From: Desulfopila aestuarii DSM 18488
GTDB taxonomy: Bacteria; Desulfobacterota; Desulfobulbia; Desulfobulbales; Desulfocapsaceae
Assembly: GCA_945863875.1 (NCBI GenBank)
Contig: CAMBBS010000042.1
Coordinates: 1-35,839, forward strand
Length of the DNA: 35,839 nt
Direction: 5' to 3'
Below the pieces are notes generated by a model, which made no database searches, had not been told where the DNA came from, and was given only the letters and a program-made list of their open reading frames with translations. A program made the position numbers and the translations under genes. Each line of letters starts with the position of its first letter. The first letter of the stretch is position 1. This document shows, one piece after another, positions 14,881 through 22,332 of this stretch.

Positions 14881-15132
14881 TCAGGCCTTCCCCATCGAGA
14901 GTTTTTTCAATAACCTGCCAAGGGCATGTTGTTCGGTTTCCGTCAGAACCGCTCTCCTGTTCAGGACAATATCCGCATGGGCAGGAAAAATTCGTCCAAT
15001 AGTTGTTCTTCCCTTCGGGGTCAGGTGAATTGTGTAGTAGCGTTTGCCGTCACACTTCACCTCTCGCCTCACCAGACCACCTTTTTCAAGATTATTTACA
15101 ATTGTGGTGATATTGCCTGGGGATTTCACCAT
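14881..15132 (-). CDS. MarR-family regulator lacking its N-terminal half
   Basis: Only 83 aa against about 140 for the family. It begins at the recognition helix (SPGNITTIVNNLEKGGLVRRE), then has the wing (KCDGKRYYTIHLTPKG) and part of the C-terminal helices. Helices 1-3 of the normal dimer and DNA-binding fold are absent. In frame, a TAA stop lies 14 codons upstream, and the intervening HVKLHAGEEKV is the only possible coding extension. A consensus promoter (15168-15194) sits directly upstream and GGAGAAGAGAAGG precedes the ATG, so the short gene is probably expressed. It may be a decaying copy or a reduced regulator. Confidence 0.65.
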   Translation of the reverse strand: MVKSPGNITTIVNNLEKGGLVRREVKCDGKRYYTIHLTPKGRTTIGRIFPAHADIVLNRRAVLTETEQHALGRLLKKLSMGKA

Positions 15133-15307: not shown

Positions 15308-15682
15308 CTATTTTTTCCAGAGACCGTGCAGGTTGCAATAGGCACGGGCGGTGACAACATCGGCTTTAATCGGGAAAAAAGCTGCCGGCTTGGCTGATGG
15401 GTGTAAAAATTGCCGATAAACGGCATCTCCCGCTGTGAGCTCAATCCATTCGATGAAATGGGCATCGGTCATGGGATGATCTACAGAACCAATATTTACC
15501 TGCCAACCGTCATCACGTTTTTCCAATGCAGGCACGTGCTTTTCAACGGCGGCATCGGTTGTGTTTTCGTTTTGCATGGTCATCTGCTGACCACAGCACA
15601 TCAATTCCGCACCACCTGCAGTAAGAACTTCAACGATATTACCGCAGACATCGCATTTGTAAATTCCCATTTTTTTAGCCAT
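15308..15682 (-). CDS. dfx: Desulfoferrodoxin (2Fe superoxide reductase)
   Basis: Reduces superoxide to hydrogen peroxide in the cytoplasm, taking electrons from rubredoxin. The 124-aa protein has the N-terminal desulforedoxin domain binding the centre I iron (YKCDVCG and MCCG cysteines), then the centre II domain with KHVP, DHPMTDAHFIEWIEL and the C-terminal Cys-x2-His in YCNLHGLWKK. All expected iron ligands are present, so it is the two-iron class. ATG 15682 has GGAGG 6 nt upstream. A rubredoxin is encoded about 8 kb away and a peroxiredoxin near it could handle the peroxide produced. Confidence 0.96.
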   Translation of the reverse strand: MAKKMGIYKCDVCGNIVEVLTAGGAELMCCGQQMTMQNENTTDAAVEKHVPALEKRDDGWQVNIGSVDHPMTDAHFIEWIELTAGDAVYRQFLHPSAKPAAFFPIKADVVTARAYCNLHGLWKK

Positions 15683-16139
15683 TTATATCCTCCAGTGTTA
15701 ATGATTAGGGTTTAGTTGTCATCTAGAAGCCTCATTGAGAATGCCCTTTCGGAGTCTCGGACAGACGCCTAGTGCCAACACTATATACTACAGTGTAGCT
15801 GTAATATTGGTAGCAAATTCAGCATGATTTACCATGAAACAGCTGTTTTGAGTAAACTTCAGTTATCAACGTTAAGCATAGAATGTTTAGTCTGCAAATA
15901 TTTTAAGAAATATTTGCGAAAAAGAATCATTTCCATTTGTTGCCGCATATCCATAGACCGCTGACCCTTTTTTTAAAAGAAAGAGTATGCTATTAATTGC
16001 AAACTGAGCAAAGAGTAATTAATCAACTAACAAAGTACAATAATGAGCTAAAGGCAGTTTGCTGTGATATCAGATATCTGATTCGATGGGTTGAAAAAAC
16101 CTTCCGACTCCAAAAACATGTACGACTCGAGGAGAAATT
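15683..16139. other. Divergent regulatory region between dfx and the oxidase operon
   Basis: No gene is seen in these 457 nt. Three dyads stand out: CTACA-G-TGTAG (15788-15798) in the presumed dfx promoter, GCAAATATTT/AAATATTTGC (15894-15903 and 15908-15917), and a perfect 14-bp palindrome ATCAGATATCTGAT (16069-16082) 57 nt before the DOMON gene. The DNA between is AT-rich. Promoters for both sides should lie here, but only a weak dfx candidate (TTGCTA-N18-TGTAGT) is visible. Confidence 0.5.
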
Positions 16140-16691
16140 ATGAAAATGAACAATGTGCAAAAAATGGTTGCAGGGCTGAGCGTCCTGCTCTGTGCCGCCG
16201 CGACGAATATTCAGGCCACCGAATATGACCATGAAGTACAAGACAAAAAAATTCTCTTTGCCTGGAAGGTAGCTGGGGAGACACTGGCTGTCAAACTGAC
16301 TGCCGAGACGGAAGGGTGGGTTGGTATAGGATTTAATCCTGCATCAGAGATGAAAGGGGCCAATTTCATCCTCGGTTATGTGAAAGATGGCGAAGTGAAG
16401 TTGGATGATGATTACGGCTCTGATGCATACGCCCATAAATCGGACACGAAAATCGGCGGCACCAGTGATGTTACATTGGTAGGCGGAACCGAAACTGGCG
16501 GCACGACAACCATAGAGTTTACCATTCCTCTGGACTCAGGCGATAAAAACGATGCAAAAATTGATGTGAACGGTGATACTACGGTTCTTTTAGCCTATGG
16601 AACCAGCCGTGACAGCTTCCTGGCCAAGCATAAATACAGAACTGCTCTGAAAGTGAACCTGAGCTCGGGTGCATCGGAGAAAATGGAATAA
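16140..16691 (+). CDS. Exported DOMON-domain protein
   Basis: A 183-aa protein with a clear signal peptide (basic MKMNNVQK, hydrophobic core, AxA-type end near residue 26 at NIQA), so periplasmic. The rest matches the DOMON fold, which binds heme or sugar: LFAWKVAGETLAVKLTAETEGWVGIGFNP, MKGANFILGYVKDG, then FTIPLDSGD and VLLAYGTS. The methionine in SEMKGAN may be a heme ligand as in cytochrome-b-type DOMON proteins; this is inference. A GGAGAAATT ribosome-binding site precedes ATG 16140. It lies 6 nt ahead of sco, making it the first gene of the oxidase operon and a possible redox partner of the oxidase. Confidence 0.85.
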   Translation: MKMNNVQKMVAGLSVLLCAAATNIQATEYDHEVQDKKILFAWKVAGETLAVKLTAETEGWVGIGFNPASEMKGANFILGYVKDGEVKLDDDYGSDAYAHKSDTKIGGTSDVTLVGGTETGGTTTIEFTIPLDSGDKNDAKIDVNGDTTVLLAYGTSRDSFLAKHKYRTALKVNLSSGASEKME

Positions 16692-16697
16692 CCGGAT

Positions 16698-17528
16698 GTG
16701 TGCATGATACCTTGGATAAAAACCATCGTCTTCTTCGTTGTGCTCTTTTTGGCGATGGGAACTGGTAGTTATTCCAGAGCGGAAAACAATGCACCGGGAC
16801 TTCTCGAGCAGAGCAAGAAGGTTTTGGCCGGCAGCAAGGCCGATTCAGTTCAGTGGATAGAGGAGAAGACCGGGCAGTATCTTCCGTTGGAATTGGAGTT
16901 TGTCGATGAACAGGGCAAAAGAGTGCGGCTCGGGGATATTATTGATCGGCCGACAATCTTTCTCCCTATTTATTTTTATTGCCCGAATATCTGCAGCAAA
17001 AACCTTGCTAATCTGGCCATTGCCCTTGGCAATCTTAGTTTTAAGCCGGAAAAAGAGTATCGGGTTATTGCTCTTAGTTTTAATGCAGCGGAAAACGCGG
17101 CGGATGCTGCTCGGGCAAAAAAAAATTATCTGAAAATAGTCGGGGATGATTTTCCCTCCGATGCCTGGCGTTTCCTCACCGGCAGCCCACAGGCGATTAT
17201 CGCGGCAATGGACGCTGTCGGGTTTCGGTTCAAAAAAATTGATGATCAAACCTTTATTCATCCTGCCGCGCTGATGACCATAGCAAAAGACGGGAAAATC
17301 ATCCGCTACGTCTATGGATCCTTTTTGGCCGGGGATATAGACATGGGGCTTGCCGATGCGGCAAGCGGCAGGCCGTCACTTTCGGTGAAAAGGCTCCTGG
17401 CATTCTGCTTTAATTATGATCCGGATAGCAACAAATATGTGTTTCAGCGCGTAAAAACAGGTGTGATGCTGTTTTTTGGGATAGTGTTAATCTTTGTTTT
17501 TATCTATTTTAAACGAAAACGGCCGTAG
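16698..17528 (+). CDS. Sco1/SenC-type copper chaperone for cytochrome oxidase
   Basis: Membrane-anchored thioredoxin-fold protein that delivers copper to the CuA site of oxidase subunit II. The 276-aa protein has an N-terminal signal/anchor, the copper-binding CPNIC (Cys95, Cys99) and the third ligand His188 in TFIHPA. Unusually it also has a second hydrophobic helix near the C-terminus (about 253-272) before KRKRP, so it may be anchored at both ends. The ATG at 16698 has a weak ribosome-binding site, consistent with coupling to the DOMON gene. It precedes the oxidase subunit genes. Confidence 0.9.
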   Translation: MCMIPWIKTIVFFVVLFLAMGTGSYSRAENNAPGLLEQSKKVLAGSKADSVQWIEEKTGQYLPLELEFVDEQGKRVRLGDIIDRPTIFLPIYFYCPNICSKNLANLAIALGNLSFKPEKEYRVIALSFNAAENAADAARAKKNYLKIVGDDFPSDAWRFLTGSPQAIIAAMDAVGFRFKKIDDQTFIHPAALMTIAKDGKIIRYVYGSFLAGDIDMGLADAASGRPSLSVKRLLAFCFNYDPDSNKYVFQRVKTGVMLFFGIVLIFVFIYFKRKRP

Positions 17529-17580
17529 GGTGTCGATGGCCGAGTCGTTACGATGGCAGCATTAACAGACAGGAATACAT

Positions 17581-19212
17581 ATGACTGCAACGCAATCTTT
17601 CTACCATAATTCGTCACCGCCTGGGCGTACAGGAATAATGTCCTGGCTGTTGACCCATGACCATAAACGGCTGGGCATCATGTATTTTGGCGCTGTGTGC
17701 TTCTGGTTCGTACTCGCCATGTTTCTTGGTCTCCTGCTGAGAACTGAGCTGATGACCCAGGGTCGGACTATTATGGGGGCCGAGGCCTATAATGCGACCT
17801 TTACCCTGCACGGGGTAATAATGATCTTTCTTTTTGTTATTCCCGGTATTCCGGCGATCTTCGGCAATTTTTTCCTGCCGATACAGCTTGGAACCGATGA
17901 TGTTTTTTTCCCGCGCCTCAATCTTTTCAGCTGGTACCTTTTCATGTTTGGCGGATTGTTTGCTATCATTTCTTTGTTTGTCGGTGACGGATTTCCGGAT
18001 ACCGGCTGGACCTTCTATGTGCCCTTTAGTGTGCAAAACAGTGCCAACGTCGGCCTGACCGTCACGGCGGCGTTCATTCTCGGCATGTCTTCGATGCTGA
18101 CCGGTTTGAACTTTGTCACCACCTTTCACCGCATGCGCGACAAAAGTATGGGCTTGATGCAGATACCGCTCTTTACCTGGTCACTGTATGCCACCGCCTG
18201 GGTGCAGATCCTGGCAACCCCGGTGATTTCGATTACCTTCATACTGATTTTGCTGGAACGGTTTTTCAGTATTGGGCTCTTTGACCCGGACAAAGGCGGT
18301 GACCCCTTGCTGTATCAACATCTTTTCTGGATGTATTCCCATCCCGCCGTTTATGTGATGATTTTACCGGGCATGGGGGTGATTTCAGAGATTATCCCAG
18401 TTTTTTCACGAAAATCCATCTTCGGTTATAAGGCAATCGTCTGGTCATCAATGGCCATTGCTATCGCCGGTTCGCTTGTCTGGGCACACCATATGTTCAC
18501 CAGCGGCATGAGTGATGTGTCTGTTTTTGTCTTCTCCCTGCTTACCTATCTCGTCGCTATTCCCTCGGCAGTCAAGGTCTTCTCCTGGGTCTCGACTCTC
18601 TATAAAGGGTCGATAGAGATGACGCCACCGCTCCTTCTGTCGCTCATTTTTATCTATCTCTTCAGCATTGGCGGCCTGACCGGTCTGGTTTTAGGGGCGG
18701 CCGGAACAAATATTCATGTACATGATACGCAATTTGTCGTGGCCCATTTTCACTTTGTCATGTTCGGCGGGACAGGATTTGCTTTTTTCGCGGCGATGCA
18801 TTTCTGGTGGCCGAAGATGTTTGGTGTCATGTATCGGTTTAAACCGGCGTATATCGGCGCGGTCCTGACCGGGGTGGGTTTTGTTTTTCATTATGTGCCG
18901 ATGCTCATCCTCGGTATGCAGGGCATGCCCCGGAGATATTATGACTATCTTCCCCAGTACGAAACCGGCAACTTCCTTGCCGGTTTCGGCGGATATCTGC
19001 TCATTATCGGTATGGTGACGATGTTTGTGAATCTGCTGCTGAGCTTCAAGCAACGGATTCCCGCACCTGTTGATCCCTGGGGGGGAACCACTCTGGAGTG
19101 GACGGTCCCATCGCCGCCGCCGGTGCACAATTTCATGAACAAGCCGCACGTAGAGGATTATCCATATGATTTCACCAAGGTAACTGAACGATTCCAGAAA
19201 ACTGGCAAGTAA
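17581..19212 (+). CDS. coxA: Cytochrome c oxidase subunit I, A2 type
   Basis: Catalytic heme-copper subunit that reduces O2 to water and pumps protons. The 543-aa protein has about 12 membrane helices. Heme a ligands are His77 (TLHGVIM) and His391. CuB ligands are His254, His303 and His304 (WAHHMF), with the cross-linked Tyr258 in HPAVY, and His389 is the likely heme a3 ligand (HFHFVMFGG). Helix VI reads MYSHPAVY instead of GHPEVY: the proton-channel glutamate is replaced and the YS pair is present, the mark of A2-type oxidases. An AGGA site precedes ATG 17581. Subunits III, IV and II follow closely. Confidence 0.96.
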   Translation: MTATQSFYHNSSPPGRTGIMSWLLTHDHKRLGIMYFGAVCFWFVLAMFLGLLLRTELMTQGRTIMGAEAYNATFTLHGVIMIFLFVIPGIPAIFGNFFLPIQLGTDDVFFPRLNLFSWYLFMFGGLFAIISLFVGDGFPDTGWTFYVPFSVQNSANVGLTVTAAFILGMSSMLTGLNFVTTFHRMRDKSMGLMQIPLFTWSLYATAWVQILATPVISITFILILLERFFSIGLFDPDKGGDPLLYQHLFWMYSHPAVYVMILPGMGVISEIIPVFSRKSIFGYKAIVWSSMAIAIAGSLVWAHHMFTSGMSDVSVFVFSLLTYLVAIPSAVKVFSWVSTLYKGSIEMTPPLLLSLIFIYLFSIGGLTGLVLGAAGTNIHVHDTQFVVAHFHFVMFGGTGFAFFAAMHFWWPKMFGVMYRFKPAYIGAVLTGVGFVFHYVPMLILGMQGMPRRYYDYLPQYETGNFLAGFGGYLLIIGMVTMFVNLLLSFKQRIPAPVDPWGGTTLEWTVPSPPPVHNFMNKPHVEDYPYDFTKVTERFQKTGK

Positions 19213-19223
19213 GGATTATTGAA

Positions 19224-19820
19224 ATGAGCTCACAGGTAGACAGAGCTGGTATTAAACTCGGGATGTGGTTGTTTCTCTATTCGGAAATCATCCTTTTCGG
19301 CGGACTTTTTGTCCTGTATGCGGCGTATCTGCACCGATATCCCGAGTTCTTTGCCGAGGGTGGCAAAGAATTGAACCGGGTAATCGGGGCGGTCAATACC
19401 ATCGTCCTGCTTATCTCCAGTTTCACCGTGGCCGCCTCCATTACCGCTATACAGCGAAACGCCAAAAAACAGGCCGTTGGCTTGCTGCTCTTCTCTCTTT
19501 TTTGCGGTGTTGTCTTTCTGGTGAATAAATATTTTGAATGGGGGGCGAAGATTCATCATGACATTTACCCAAACTCCGAAACCCTTGTTGCCGGAGAACC
19601 TGGGGTGAATATCTTTTTTGGTCTCTATTATGTTATCACCGGCCTGCACGGCCTCCATGTCATCATCGGTATGGCGCTGCTCTCCGTCAGTCTCATTTTT
19701 GTCCTAAACGGTAAAGTGACTGCCTCCAGATTTTCCATGCTCGATAACTCCGGTCTCTACTGGCATCTGGTAGACCTTATCTGGATTTTTGTGTTCCCTT
19801 TGTTTTACCTGGTATTGTAA
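19224..19820 (+). CDS. coxC: Cytochrome c oxidase subunit III
   Basis: Integral subunit that supports oxidase stability and proton uptake. The 198-aa protein has about five membrane helices, the short bacterial form. It shows KLGMWLFLYSEIILFGGLF at the N-terminus, ITGLHGLHVIIGM, and the final YWHLVDLIWIFVFPLFYLV, all typical of this family. AAGGA lies upstream of ATG 19224, 11 nt after coxA. The hydrophobic parts and position in the operon leave little doubt. Confidence 0.94.
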   Translation: MSSQVDRAGIKLGMWLFLYSEIILFGGLFVLYAAYLHRYPEFFAEGGKELNRVIGAVNTIVLLISSFTVAASITAIQRNAKKQAVGLLLFSLFCGVVFLVNKYFEWGAKIHHDIYPNSETLVAGEPGVNIFFGLYYVITGLHGLHVIIGMALLSVSLIFVLNGKVTASRFSMLDNSGLYWHLVDLIWIFVFPLFYLVL

Positions 19821-19845
19821 TACAGATCAGTTTTGGAGATTGAAC

Positions 19846-20133
19846 GTGGAGAATCAGGATAAACAGCATGTGCTCAGCTTTACTCAACTCGGGATGGTTC
19901 TGGCGATTCTCCTGGTGCTGACCGGAGTTACCGTCGGGGTATCCTACATTGACATGGGATTCTTCAATATTCCCATTGCCCTGGCCATTGCCTGCACCAA
20001 GGTGACCTTTGTGCTGCTCTTTTTTATGCATCTCAAATATGAAGGTCGTGTTATCAATATATCGTTCATCAGTACGGTACTGGTGCTCGTTATTTTGATC
20101 GGGTTTACCTTCTGGGATGTGGCATACCGATAA
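19846..20133 (+). CDS. coxD: Cytochrome c oxidase subunit IV
   Basis: Small accessory subunit. The 95-aa protein has three membrane helices. It has the family pattern of a short polar N-terminus, LAIACTKVTFVLLFFMHLKYE in the middle, and a last helix ending FWDVAYR. I chose GTG 19846, preceded by TTGGAGAT; the frame opens at 19789 but the extra codons overlap coxC and lack homology. Its place between subunits III and II is usual for caa3/aa3 operons of this type. Confidence 0.88.
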   Translation: MENQDKQHVLSFTQLGMVLAILLVLTGVTVGVSYIDMGFFNIPIALAIACTKVTFVLLFFMHLKYEGRVINISFISTVLVLVILIGFTFWDVAYR

Positions 20134-20148
20134 CAGCTGGAGAATTCT

Positions 20149-20736
20149 ATGACCCCGGTACAAGGCGTTGATCAGGCATTTTGGTATATACTCGGAATTT
20201 CCGTCGTACTGCTGTTTGGCATCACCGCCGTGATGGTCTTTTTCGTCGTTAGGTACAGGCGAAGCAAACATCCTGTCGCCGCTGATATTCGAGATAATTA
20301 TCCTCTGGAAATTGTCTGGACGATTATCCCGACGCTGATAGCACTATCCATGTTTTACGTTGGCTGGTCCTCCTATCTCGGACTGCGCACCGTTCCCGAT
20401 GACGCCATGGAGGTAGAGGTCCTGGCTCAGCAGTATTCGTGGATTTTCGTCTATGACAATGACAAGGAAACCGAGAATGAACTGGTGGTTCCCCTGGGCA
20501 GGGCAGTCAAGCTGAATATCACCTCCCTTGATGTACTGCACAGCTTCTTTGTGCCGGCCTTTCGCATTAAAGTTGATGCGGTCAAAGGCATGTCGACCTA
20601 TACCTGGTTCTATGCCGACGAGCTTGGGGAATACGATATTGAGTGTACCGAGTATTGTGGGGTAGATCATTCGGCCATGGTTGCCAAACTGAGAATCGTC
20701 CCTGAAACAGAATTCCAGAGCTGGCTGCTAAAGTAA
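20149..20736 (+). CDS. coxB: Cytochrome c oxidase subunit II, CuA without cytochrome c domain
   Basis: Electron-entry subunit. The 195-aa protein has two N-terminal membrane helices, then a periplasmic cupredoxin domain. The aromatic WIFVYDNDKE follows QQYS, the first CuA histidine is in DVLHSFFVPAF, and the rest of the CuA site is CTEYCGVDHSAM (C-x3-C-x3-H-x2-M). It ends soon after the CuA domain, so unlike caa3 enzymes it has no fused cytochrome c; an external donor is needed and none is in the window. The N-terminus lacks a classical cleaved signal. GGAG precedes ATG 20149. Confidence 0.95.
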   Translation: MTPVQGVDQAFWYILGISVVLLFGITAVMVFFVVRYRRSKHPVAADIRDNYPLEIVWTIIPTLIALSMFYVGWSSYLGLRTVPDDAMEVEVLAQQYSWIFVYDNDKETENELVVPLGRAVKLNITSLDVLHSFFVPAFRIKVDAVKGMSTYTWFYADELGEYDIECTEYCGVDHSAMVAKLRIVPETEFQSWLLK

Positions 20737-21666: not shown

Positions 21667-21939
21667 GGGTCCTGAAGGTAAAACATTAACAGTTCGGGGG
21701 CGACAGTTTTGCAGTTTTCCGTGAACAGCTACCCAAAACGCGCCGTGAAGCCCGGTCCTGCAGGTCCGGGCTGCCGGGCGTAAGCTGTTCCTCCGGTGTC
21801 AGTTGCTGTTCGACATGGCGCCGGCAGCAGGAATCCACCAAAGCACCTGTTCAGAAGCGTATGCTCATGCGTAGGTGCTGGTGGAATCCTCGATCTTCAG
21901 GCCGGGGAGAATGTCGAAACAGTTGCAATGAAAGGACCC
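21667..21939 (+). ncRNA. Candidate structured RNA element upstream of the selenoprotein gene
   Basis: The 321 nt between ctaB and the selenoprotein contain no gene but many long pairings. GGGTCCT/AGGACCC (667-673 with 933-939 of the 21000s) closes the whole. Domain 1 has GAACAGCT/AGCTGTTC (723-730, 783-790), CGCC/GGCG (741-744, 777-780) and AGCCCGG/CCGGGCT (749-755, 766-772). Domain 2 has TTCGACAT/ATGTCGAA (809-816, 911-918) and an inner stem with CCACC/GGTGG (835-839, 880-884) and AGCACCT/AGGTGCT (842-848, 873-879). I do not recognise a known family. It could be a leader riboregulator, a separate RNA or a remnant palindromic mobile element. Confidence 0.5.
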
Positions 21940-21969
21940 TGCTATGAATAATTATAATGGGAGGTACGA

Positions 21970-22332
21970 ATGAACATCGATTGGGCTTACATGCGTAGAG
22001 GATGAGCTTCCTGTAAAAAAGCCTGGATGGTTTTTGCGGAAAAAAACATCTCGATTGCGACCGAGGTGAATGCGAGAAATCAAACCTACAAAGGAGAAGA
22101 GGCGTGGAAGGTGATTGCCGATGCAGACATCGTACATGTCGCTAGTGGCCAGCAGTGTATAGCGTTTTCTCCTTCAACCGCTGATAAGGATGTCCTGCTG
22201 AAAAAGCTTACCGGACCAACGGGTAATCTTCGGGCGCCCACCGTGAAAATCGGCAATGTTTTTTATGTCGGCTACAATGCCGCGCTGTATGATCGGCTTG
22301 GCCAGGGAGGCGGTTCGGTCGATTTTCTCTAA
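21970..22332 (+). CDS. ArsC-family selenoprotein with in-frame UGA (Sec12)
   Basis: A 120-aa thioredoxin-fold protein of the ArsC/Spx-like group. Codon 12 is TGA (22003-22005), giving the redox motif G-Sec-A-S-C-K-K-A at residues 11-18, where relatives have Cys in the first position. The reading frame is open on both sides, with a cis-proline-like RAPTVKIGN later. GGGAGGT lies 5 nt before ATG 21970, so translation starts before the UGA. A SECIS-like hairpin (22008-22041) begins 3 nt after it. An ordinary gene caller would start at 22027 and lose the active site. Substrate is unknown; an arsenate reductase role is not shown. It implies selA, selB, selC and selD elsewhere in the genome. Confidence 0.88.
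22008..22041 (+). promoter_or_regulatory. Bacterial SECIS hairpin
   Basis: TTCC (22008-22011) pairs with GGAA (22038-22041), then GT with GC via a G-U pair, an A-rich/T-rich helix, and GCC with GGT, closing a UGGAU loop (22024-22028). The loop holds the GG expected for SelB recognition and lies about 19-23 nt after the UGA, within the range for bacterial SECIS elements. Confidence 0.75.

Follow-up and report, generated by a model that had tools for sequence, protein, structure and literature searches.

A predicted ArsC-like selenoprotein gene with a conserved in-frame UGA in a draft genome of Desulfopila aestuarii

Introduction

Does a TGA triplet that interrupts a short open frame encode selenocysteine (Sec), or does it mark a mere stop in front of a shorter gene? 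This question is raised by a locus in a stretch of 35,839 nucleotides from Desulfopila aestuarii DSM 18488 (GCA_945863875.1, contig CAMBBS010000042.1), which is referred to as the window throughout this study. In the frame concerned, the list of open reading frames compiled with translation table 11 contains only a segment at 22027-22332 encoding 101 amino acids, whereas an earlier sequence-only reading had proposed a longer gene, in which the TGA encodes the Sec of an ArsC-like redox protein and is followed, at a suitable distance, by a hairpin with a GG-containing loop. In our analysis, we have computed the family of the predicted protein, the conservation of its UGA, the covariation of the hairpin within the genus and the presence of selA, selB and selD in the genome. 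We consider it very probable that the locus holds a gene whose in-frame UGA is decoded as Sec, and that its product is a small oxidoreductase belonging to NF041106, a family of ArsC/Spx-like (seleno)proteins. A selenoprotein gene that is shortened by a stop-based list of open reading frames would thus be backed by homology and covariation. A literature search combining Desulforhopalus with selenoprotein found no paper in the library covered.

Results

Organization of the gene and conservation of the UGA

The features of the locus are compiled in Table 1. The frame begins with an ATG at 21970, ends with a TAA at 22330-22332 and stays open for 108 codons 3' of the UGA at codon 12, and the extent of the gene and the codon of the TGA given in the sequence-only reading proved to be exact. 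The redox motif of the predicted protein reads G11-U12-A-S-C15-K-K.

Table 1. Coordinates of features at the locus and of a tRNA gene located elsewhere in the genome
Feature	Position	Strand	Remark
Predicted ArsC-like selenoprotein gene	21970..22332	+	120 residues, UGA as predicted Sec at residue 12
Ribosome-binding site GGAGG	21960..21964	+	5 bases 5' of the ATG
In-frame UGA, codon 12, predicted Sec	22003..22005	+	TGA in 40/40 aligned loci
Cys15, second residue of UxxC	22012..22014	+	Cys in 39/40 sequences, Ser in one (G052)
SECIS-like hairpin	22017..22035	+	Upper stem 22017-22023 with 22029-22035; loop 22024-22028 (UGGAU)
Desulfoferrodoxin, DOMON and SCO1/SenC beside cytochrome c oxidase subunits I, III, II	15308-20736		Pfam
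tRNA-Sec-like gene, anticodon GCA	L010:1501-1590 = G000:C30:43537-43626	-	Covariance match; ARAGORN calls tRNA-Cys

Homologues of the gene were found in 28 of 395 genomes searched within the phylum, covering 15 genera, and in 13 of 15 genomes searched within the genus (this genome being included in both counts), and the in-frame TGA is present in all 28 and all 13 matches, respectively. The family alignment comprises 40 distinct loci, 13 from the same genus and 27 from outside, since the locus L023 of Desulforhopalus sp. IMCC35007 and the genus locus L085 encode the same protein and only the former was kept. Judged from this identity, the window probably originates from Desulforhopalus or a genus close to it. 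The TGA at codon 12, which is shared by all of these loci, is for this reason not a product of chance. A second in-frame TGA found in three genomes (G357, G376 and G405) sits at the C-terminal end of the protein, and we take it to be the stop codon. Conservation extends to both sides of the UGA. Tyr 7 and Arg 9 are present in all 40 sequences, whereas Trp 5, Ala 6, Lys 10 and Gly 11 are found in 36 to 39 of them, with the window protein carrying an Arg at position 10, where most others contain a Lys. The invariant positions include, besides Tyr 7, Arg 9 and residue 12, also Ala 35, Gly 85, Arg 88, Pro 90 and others. The region 5' of the UGA, whose failure to align had been named as an observation that would speak against the gene, thus aligns well, and the proposed location of Sec, with Cys 15 as its partner, is borne out by the same alignment. 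The pattern by which bacterial selenoproteins are recognized, an in-frame UGA conserved together with its flanking sequence on either side, was found across the 40 loci, and the UGA almost certainly encodes Sec as judged from these comparisons.

The conservation bears on two further readings of the locus. In the first, the protein would start at the downstream ATG at 22027, as in the standard list of open reading frames, and the UGA would be nothing but an upstream stop. However, a Met at residue 20 is found in only two of the 40 sequences, whereas residues 5-15 belong to the most conserved part of the protein, the GGAGG motif precedes 21970, and a protein of 101 amino acids would not contain residues 12 and 15, which makes this start extremely improbable. 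In the second, the TGA would have replaced a Cys codon by a recent mutation or by a sequencing error and the gene would be a pseudogene. We saw nothing in favour of such an origin and regard it as close to impossible in light of a TGA that is shared by 40 distinct loci and, in the phylum search, by 15 genera.

Relationship to ArsC and Spx proteins

In searches with profile programs, the UGA was read as Sec and written as C. The predicted protein matches the NCBIfam model NF041106, named 'ArsC family (seleno)protein', with 110.7 bits at a cut-off of 85, which confirms the proposed ArsC-like family, with nearly the whole length covered by the match (residues 3-107 on positions 1-107 of the model). 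Each of the 40 aligned family members matches the same model, and the UxxC motif near the N-terminus is present as U12-A-S-C15. The table of a review from 2026 contains NF041106 as 'Arsenate reductase-like protein' among the UxxC selenoprotein families (PMC13188914), and our protein resembles this entry in the length covered and in its motif, with no difference seen to an ordinary member. ArsC-like selenoproteins were already tabulated in 2006 under this name, among others in Desulfotalea psychrophila, a deltaproteobacterium (PMC1794560), and they likely belong to the same family. As reflected in these two tables, the family is already catalogued, and by its sequence the gene is an ordinary and well-supported member.

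Relationships to more distant proteins emerge from the family as a whole. At an E-value of 0.01, 24 of the 40 members match TIGR01617 (Spx/MgsR) and ten reach PF03960 (Pfam ArsC), the latter not being matched at this threshold by the window protein itself. When searched alone, this protein finds in Pfam only a glutaredoxin below its cut-off (E 0.11), and a search of the PDB with the single protein gave no match at E-values up to 1. In contrast, a profile of the 40 members detects the solved structures of Spx and YffB as well as that of a putative arsenate reductase with E-values between 1.1e-4 and 1e-3. In the match to Spx (1z3e, E 1.1e-4), residue 12 is located on the first Cys of the Spx motif CTSC and the LRAP segment of the family on LRRP. 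The profile likeness to Spx, YffB and ArsC proteins (PF03960, TIGR01617) is distant, and it extends over about 100 residues with the redox motif and the LR-P segment in register. Spx thus contains a Cys where the window protein contains Sec. This Cys provides the equivalent that had been sought at residue 12 of homologues, although within the phylum and genus searches (395 and 15 genomes) no homologue with Cys at this position was found. The name 'arsenate reductase' reflects family resemblance. An AlphaFold model generated from two sequences, with a mean pLDDT of 56.1 and values under 50 for residues 1-32, was too poor to be used in judging the proposed thioredoxin fold.

A SECIS-like hairpin with compensatory changes

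The hairpin with a GG-containing loop, which was recognized in the sequence-only reading, could be investigated at the level of the genus, where the available sequence sets provide an alignment of the putative SECIS element in which 13 sequences are aligned free of gaps. The loop begins 18 nucleotides past the UGA and contains the GG at the same place in all 13 sequences, and the spacing of the hairpin from the UGA suits bacterial SECIS elements. In the upper stem, which consists of seven pairs, 96.7% of the 91 cells of the alignment are paired and 13 cells are changed on both sides, and the covariation score is 0.484. In 500 shuffles, none of these three values was attained, and controls in which the stem was slid along the alignment pair in 27.5-53.8% of cases. 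Changes on both sides are found in three pairs, a number equalled by 202 of the 500 shuffles, and further pair types amount to eight, equalled by 20 of 500; three of the seven pairs are invariant, and these shuffle statistics ignore the relatedness of the sequences. The lower stem is poorly kept, with 65.4% of its cells paired.

The folding energy of the window sequence alone provides a different picture than the upper-stem changes. For a segment of 58 nucleotides, the z-score is -0.20, a stability equalled or surpassed by 87 of 200 shuffles, whereas it is about -1.9 for the 42 nucleotides following the UGA, and the lowest-energy fold of the window's own sequence contains only the top three pairs of the upper stem followed by a bulge. 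Averaged over 41 rows, a duplicate included, the z-score is -1.33, with 24 of the 41 rows below -1. Outside the genus, the hairpin forms in a shifted register, and 22 of the 27 sequences contain the GG one nucleotide further in the 3' direction. A search of the whole window with Rfam at gathering scores gave no match. The SECIS-like hairpin of this genus is thus supported by compensatory changes in its upper stem, which substantiate the earlier assignment at the level of sequence, and it is weak on single-sequence energy.

Selenocysteine machinery of the genome

The presence of a machinery for the synthesis and insertion of Sec had been proposed as a check of the assignment. Profile searches of this genome identified selA (618 bits, cut-off 267.9), selB (353 bits, cut-off 242.25) and two genes of selD (367 and 357 bits, cut-off 125), all above their cut-offs, with each selD containing one in-frame TGA. 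The two selD genes of this single genome are located at L019:1483-2529 and in L020 from about position 1477, and the TGA is found near the start of each.

The search for the corresponding tRNA gene had a different outcome. A genome devoid of selB and selC had been named as evidence against the selenoprotein, and while selB is present, a covariance model, with which 150 of 475 first-look candidates were scored (105 of the 475 in a second scan), detected no canonical tRNA-Sec(UCA) among the 93 contigs of the draft. Likewise, a search by DNA similarity with a 3.1-kb query containing a same-genus selC matched this genome only at glyQ, a 20-base pattern of the anticodon arm allowing up to three mismatches gave no match, and neither did blastn and tblastx comparisons of same-genus selC loci with a set of loci from this genome. 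The relatives do contain the gene. It is found in 13 of 14 other genomes of the genus, in 12 of them as full canonical tRNA-Sec with scores of 69.9-73.1 bits and a UCA anticodon assigned by ARAGORN. In the remaining case (G406), a piece with canonical letters is cut by the end of a contig and scores 49.2 bits, with no call made by ARAGORN. The one genome with no tRNA-Sec over the cut-off (G396) is 56% complete.

In the relatives, selC is flanked by plsC and a small acidic open reading frame in all 14 same-genus or same-family loci compared, and within the flanks examined by glyQ in nine of the 14, with names in both cases assigned by eye. The glyQ gene of this genome lies on contig C64 with the same 5' neighbour as in the relative's locus L061, whereas its 3' neighbour, on the side of selC, differs and no tRNA gene is located beside it. 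Neither plsC nor the small acidic frame was found in this genome, an empty result that weighs little unless a known positive is at hand, to which the comparison of the 14 loci comes nearest. We consider an assembly gap, in which a whole segment is missing, as the likeliest and simplest reason for the missing canonical selC, which is plausible in a draft of 93 contigs that is rated 98.5% complete.

The sole match over the tRNA-Sec cut-off among the 150 scored candidates is a gene on contig C30 with anticodon GCA (54.8 bits, cut-off 47). It adjoins one of the selD genes and a gene that we take to be YedF-like, its discriminator is U and the DNA following the discriminator reads TCA rather than CCA. 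The GCA anticodon and the U discriminator are shared with the selC* tRNA-Cys of Mukai et al. (2017), for which we follow the description given by a review (PMC7609411), and the likeness is judged on these two features. Read as a selC* tRNA-Cys in the sense of this description, the gene would not decode UGA, and it constitutes a feature separate from the ArsC-like gene. At least one relative (G399) contains both a canonical tRNA-Sec and the GCA form.

These observations define two readings in which the tRNA is truly lost. In one, the gene would be a selenoprotein gene by descent, in a strain that has lost tRNA-Sec(UCA) and where the UGA is no longer decoded or decoded otherwise, consistent with the missing selC, the equally missing two genes flanking it in relatives and the GCA anticodon of the only match. 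The retention of selA, selB and two selD genes with their in-frame TGA, the intact ArsC-like frame, the presence of selC in nearly all other genomes of the genus and the incomplete scoring of candidates in a fragmented draft argue against such a loss, to which we assign a small chance. In the other, where the same genes are kept, the UGA-Sec codons of this strain would be decoded by another tRNA, perhaps with participation of the GCA tRNA-Sec-like species, a reading for which we see a very small chance.

Proposed mechanism and genomic context

Sec insertion as well as the fold, chemistry and role of the protein are what we infer for the preferred assignment as an ArsC/Spx-like selenoprotein. 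During translation, the hairpin located just 3' of the UGA would direct SelB to codon 12, where SelB would deliver the Sec-tRNA. In the protein, the redox pair U12-x-x-C15 would take the position that is occupied by CxxC in Spx and in glutaredoxin-like relatives. An oxidized substrate would most likely be attacked by the selenolate, and Cys 15 would resolve the intermediate as a selenenyl-sulfide.

Upstream of the gene, the window encodes the Pfam-assigned proteins listed in Table 1 and a UbiA-family gene, which is presumably cyoE-like. An AhpC-type peroxiredoxin, also assigned by Pfam, is located downstream on the other strand. Of the 13 distinct loci of the genus, counting that of the window, 11 contain the cyoE-like gene, nine contain coxII and five the peroxiredoxin, mostly within flanks of about 1.5 kb, and all three are absent from L023, where flanks of 4 kb were available. 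The 27 loci from other genera showed none of these genes within their flanks, and, by eye, no constant partner gene is located beside 14 of them, with neighbours being shared pairwise between L024 and L025 and between L030 and L040. A tblastn search against plasmids gave no match at an E-value of 1e-3. Within the genus, the gene usually lies directly behind genes of cytochrome c oxidase, and some genomes contain a peroxiredoxin on its other side. This position suggests a role in the defence against oxygen or peroxide, which is our best guess and limited to the genus.

Two additional features of the window were observed. A frame of 83 amino acids on the minus strand (14881-15132), which has no Pfam match at 1e-5, looks on visual inspection like the C-terminal half of a MarR-type regulator. 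Between the cyoE-like and the ArsC-like genes, a long imperfect hairpin extends over 21795-21930; no second copy was detected in the window or in the loci of this genome compared, and its DNA fold shows a z-score of -4.39 with none of 200 shuffles folding as well.
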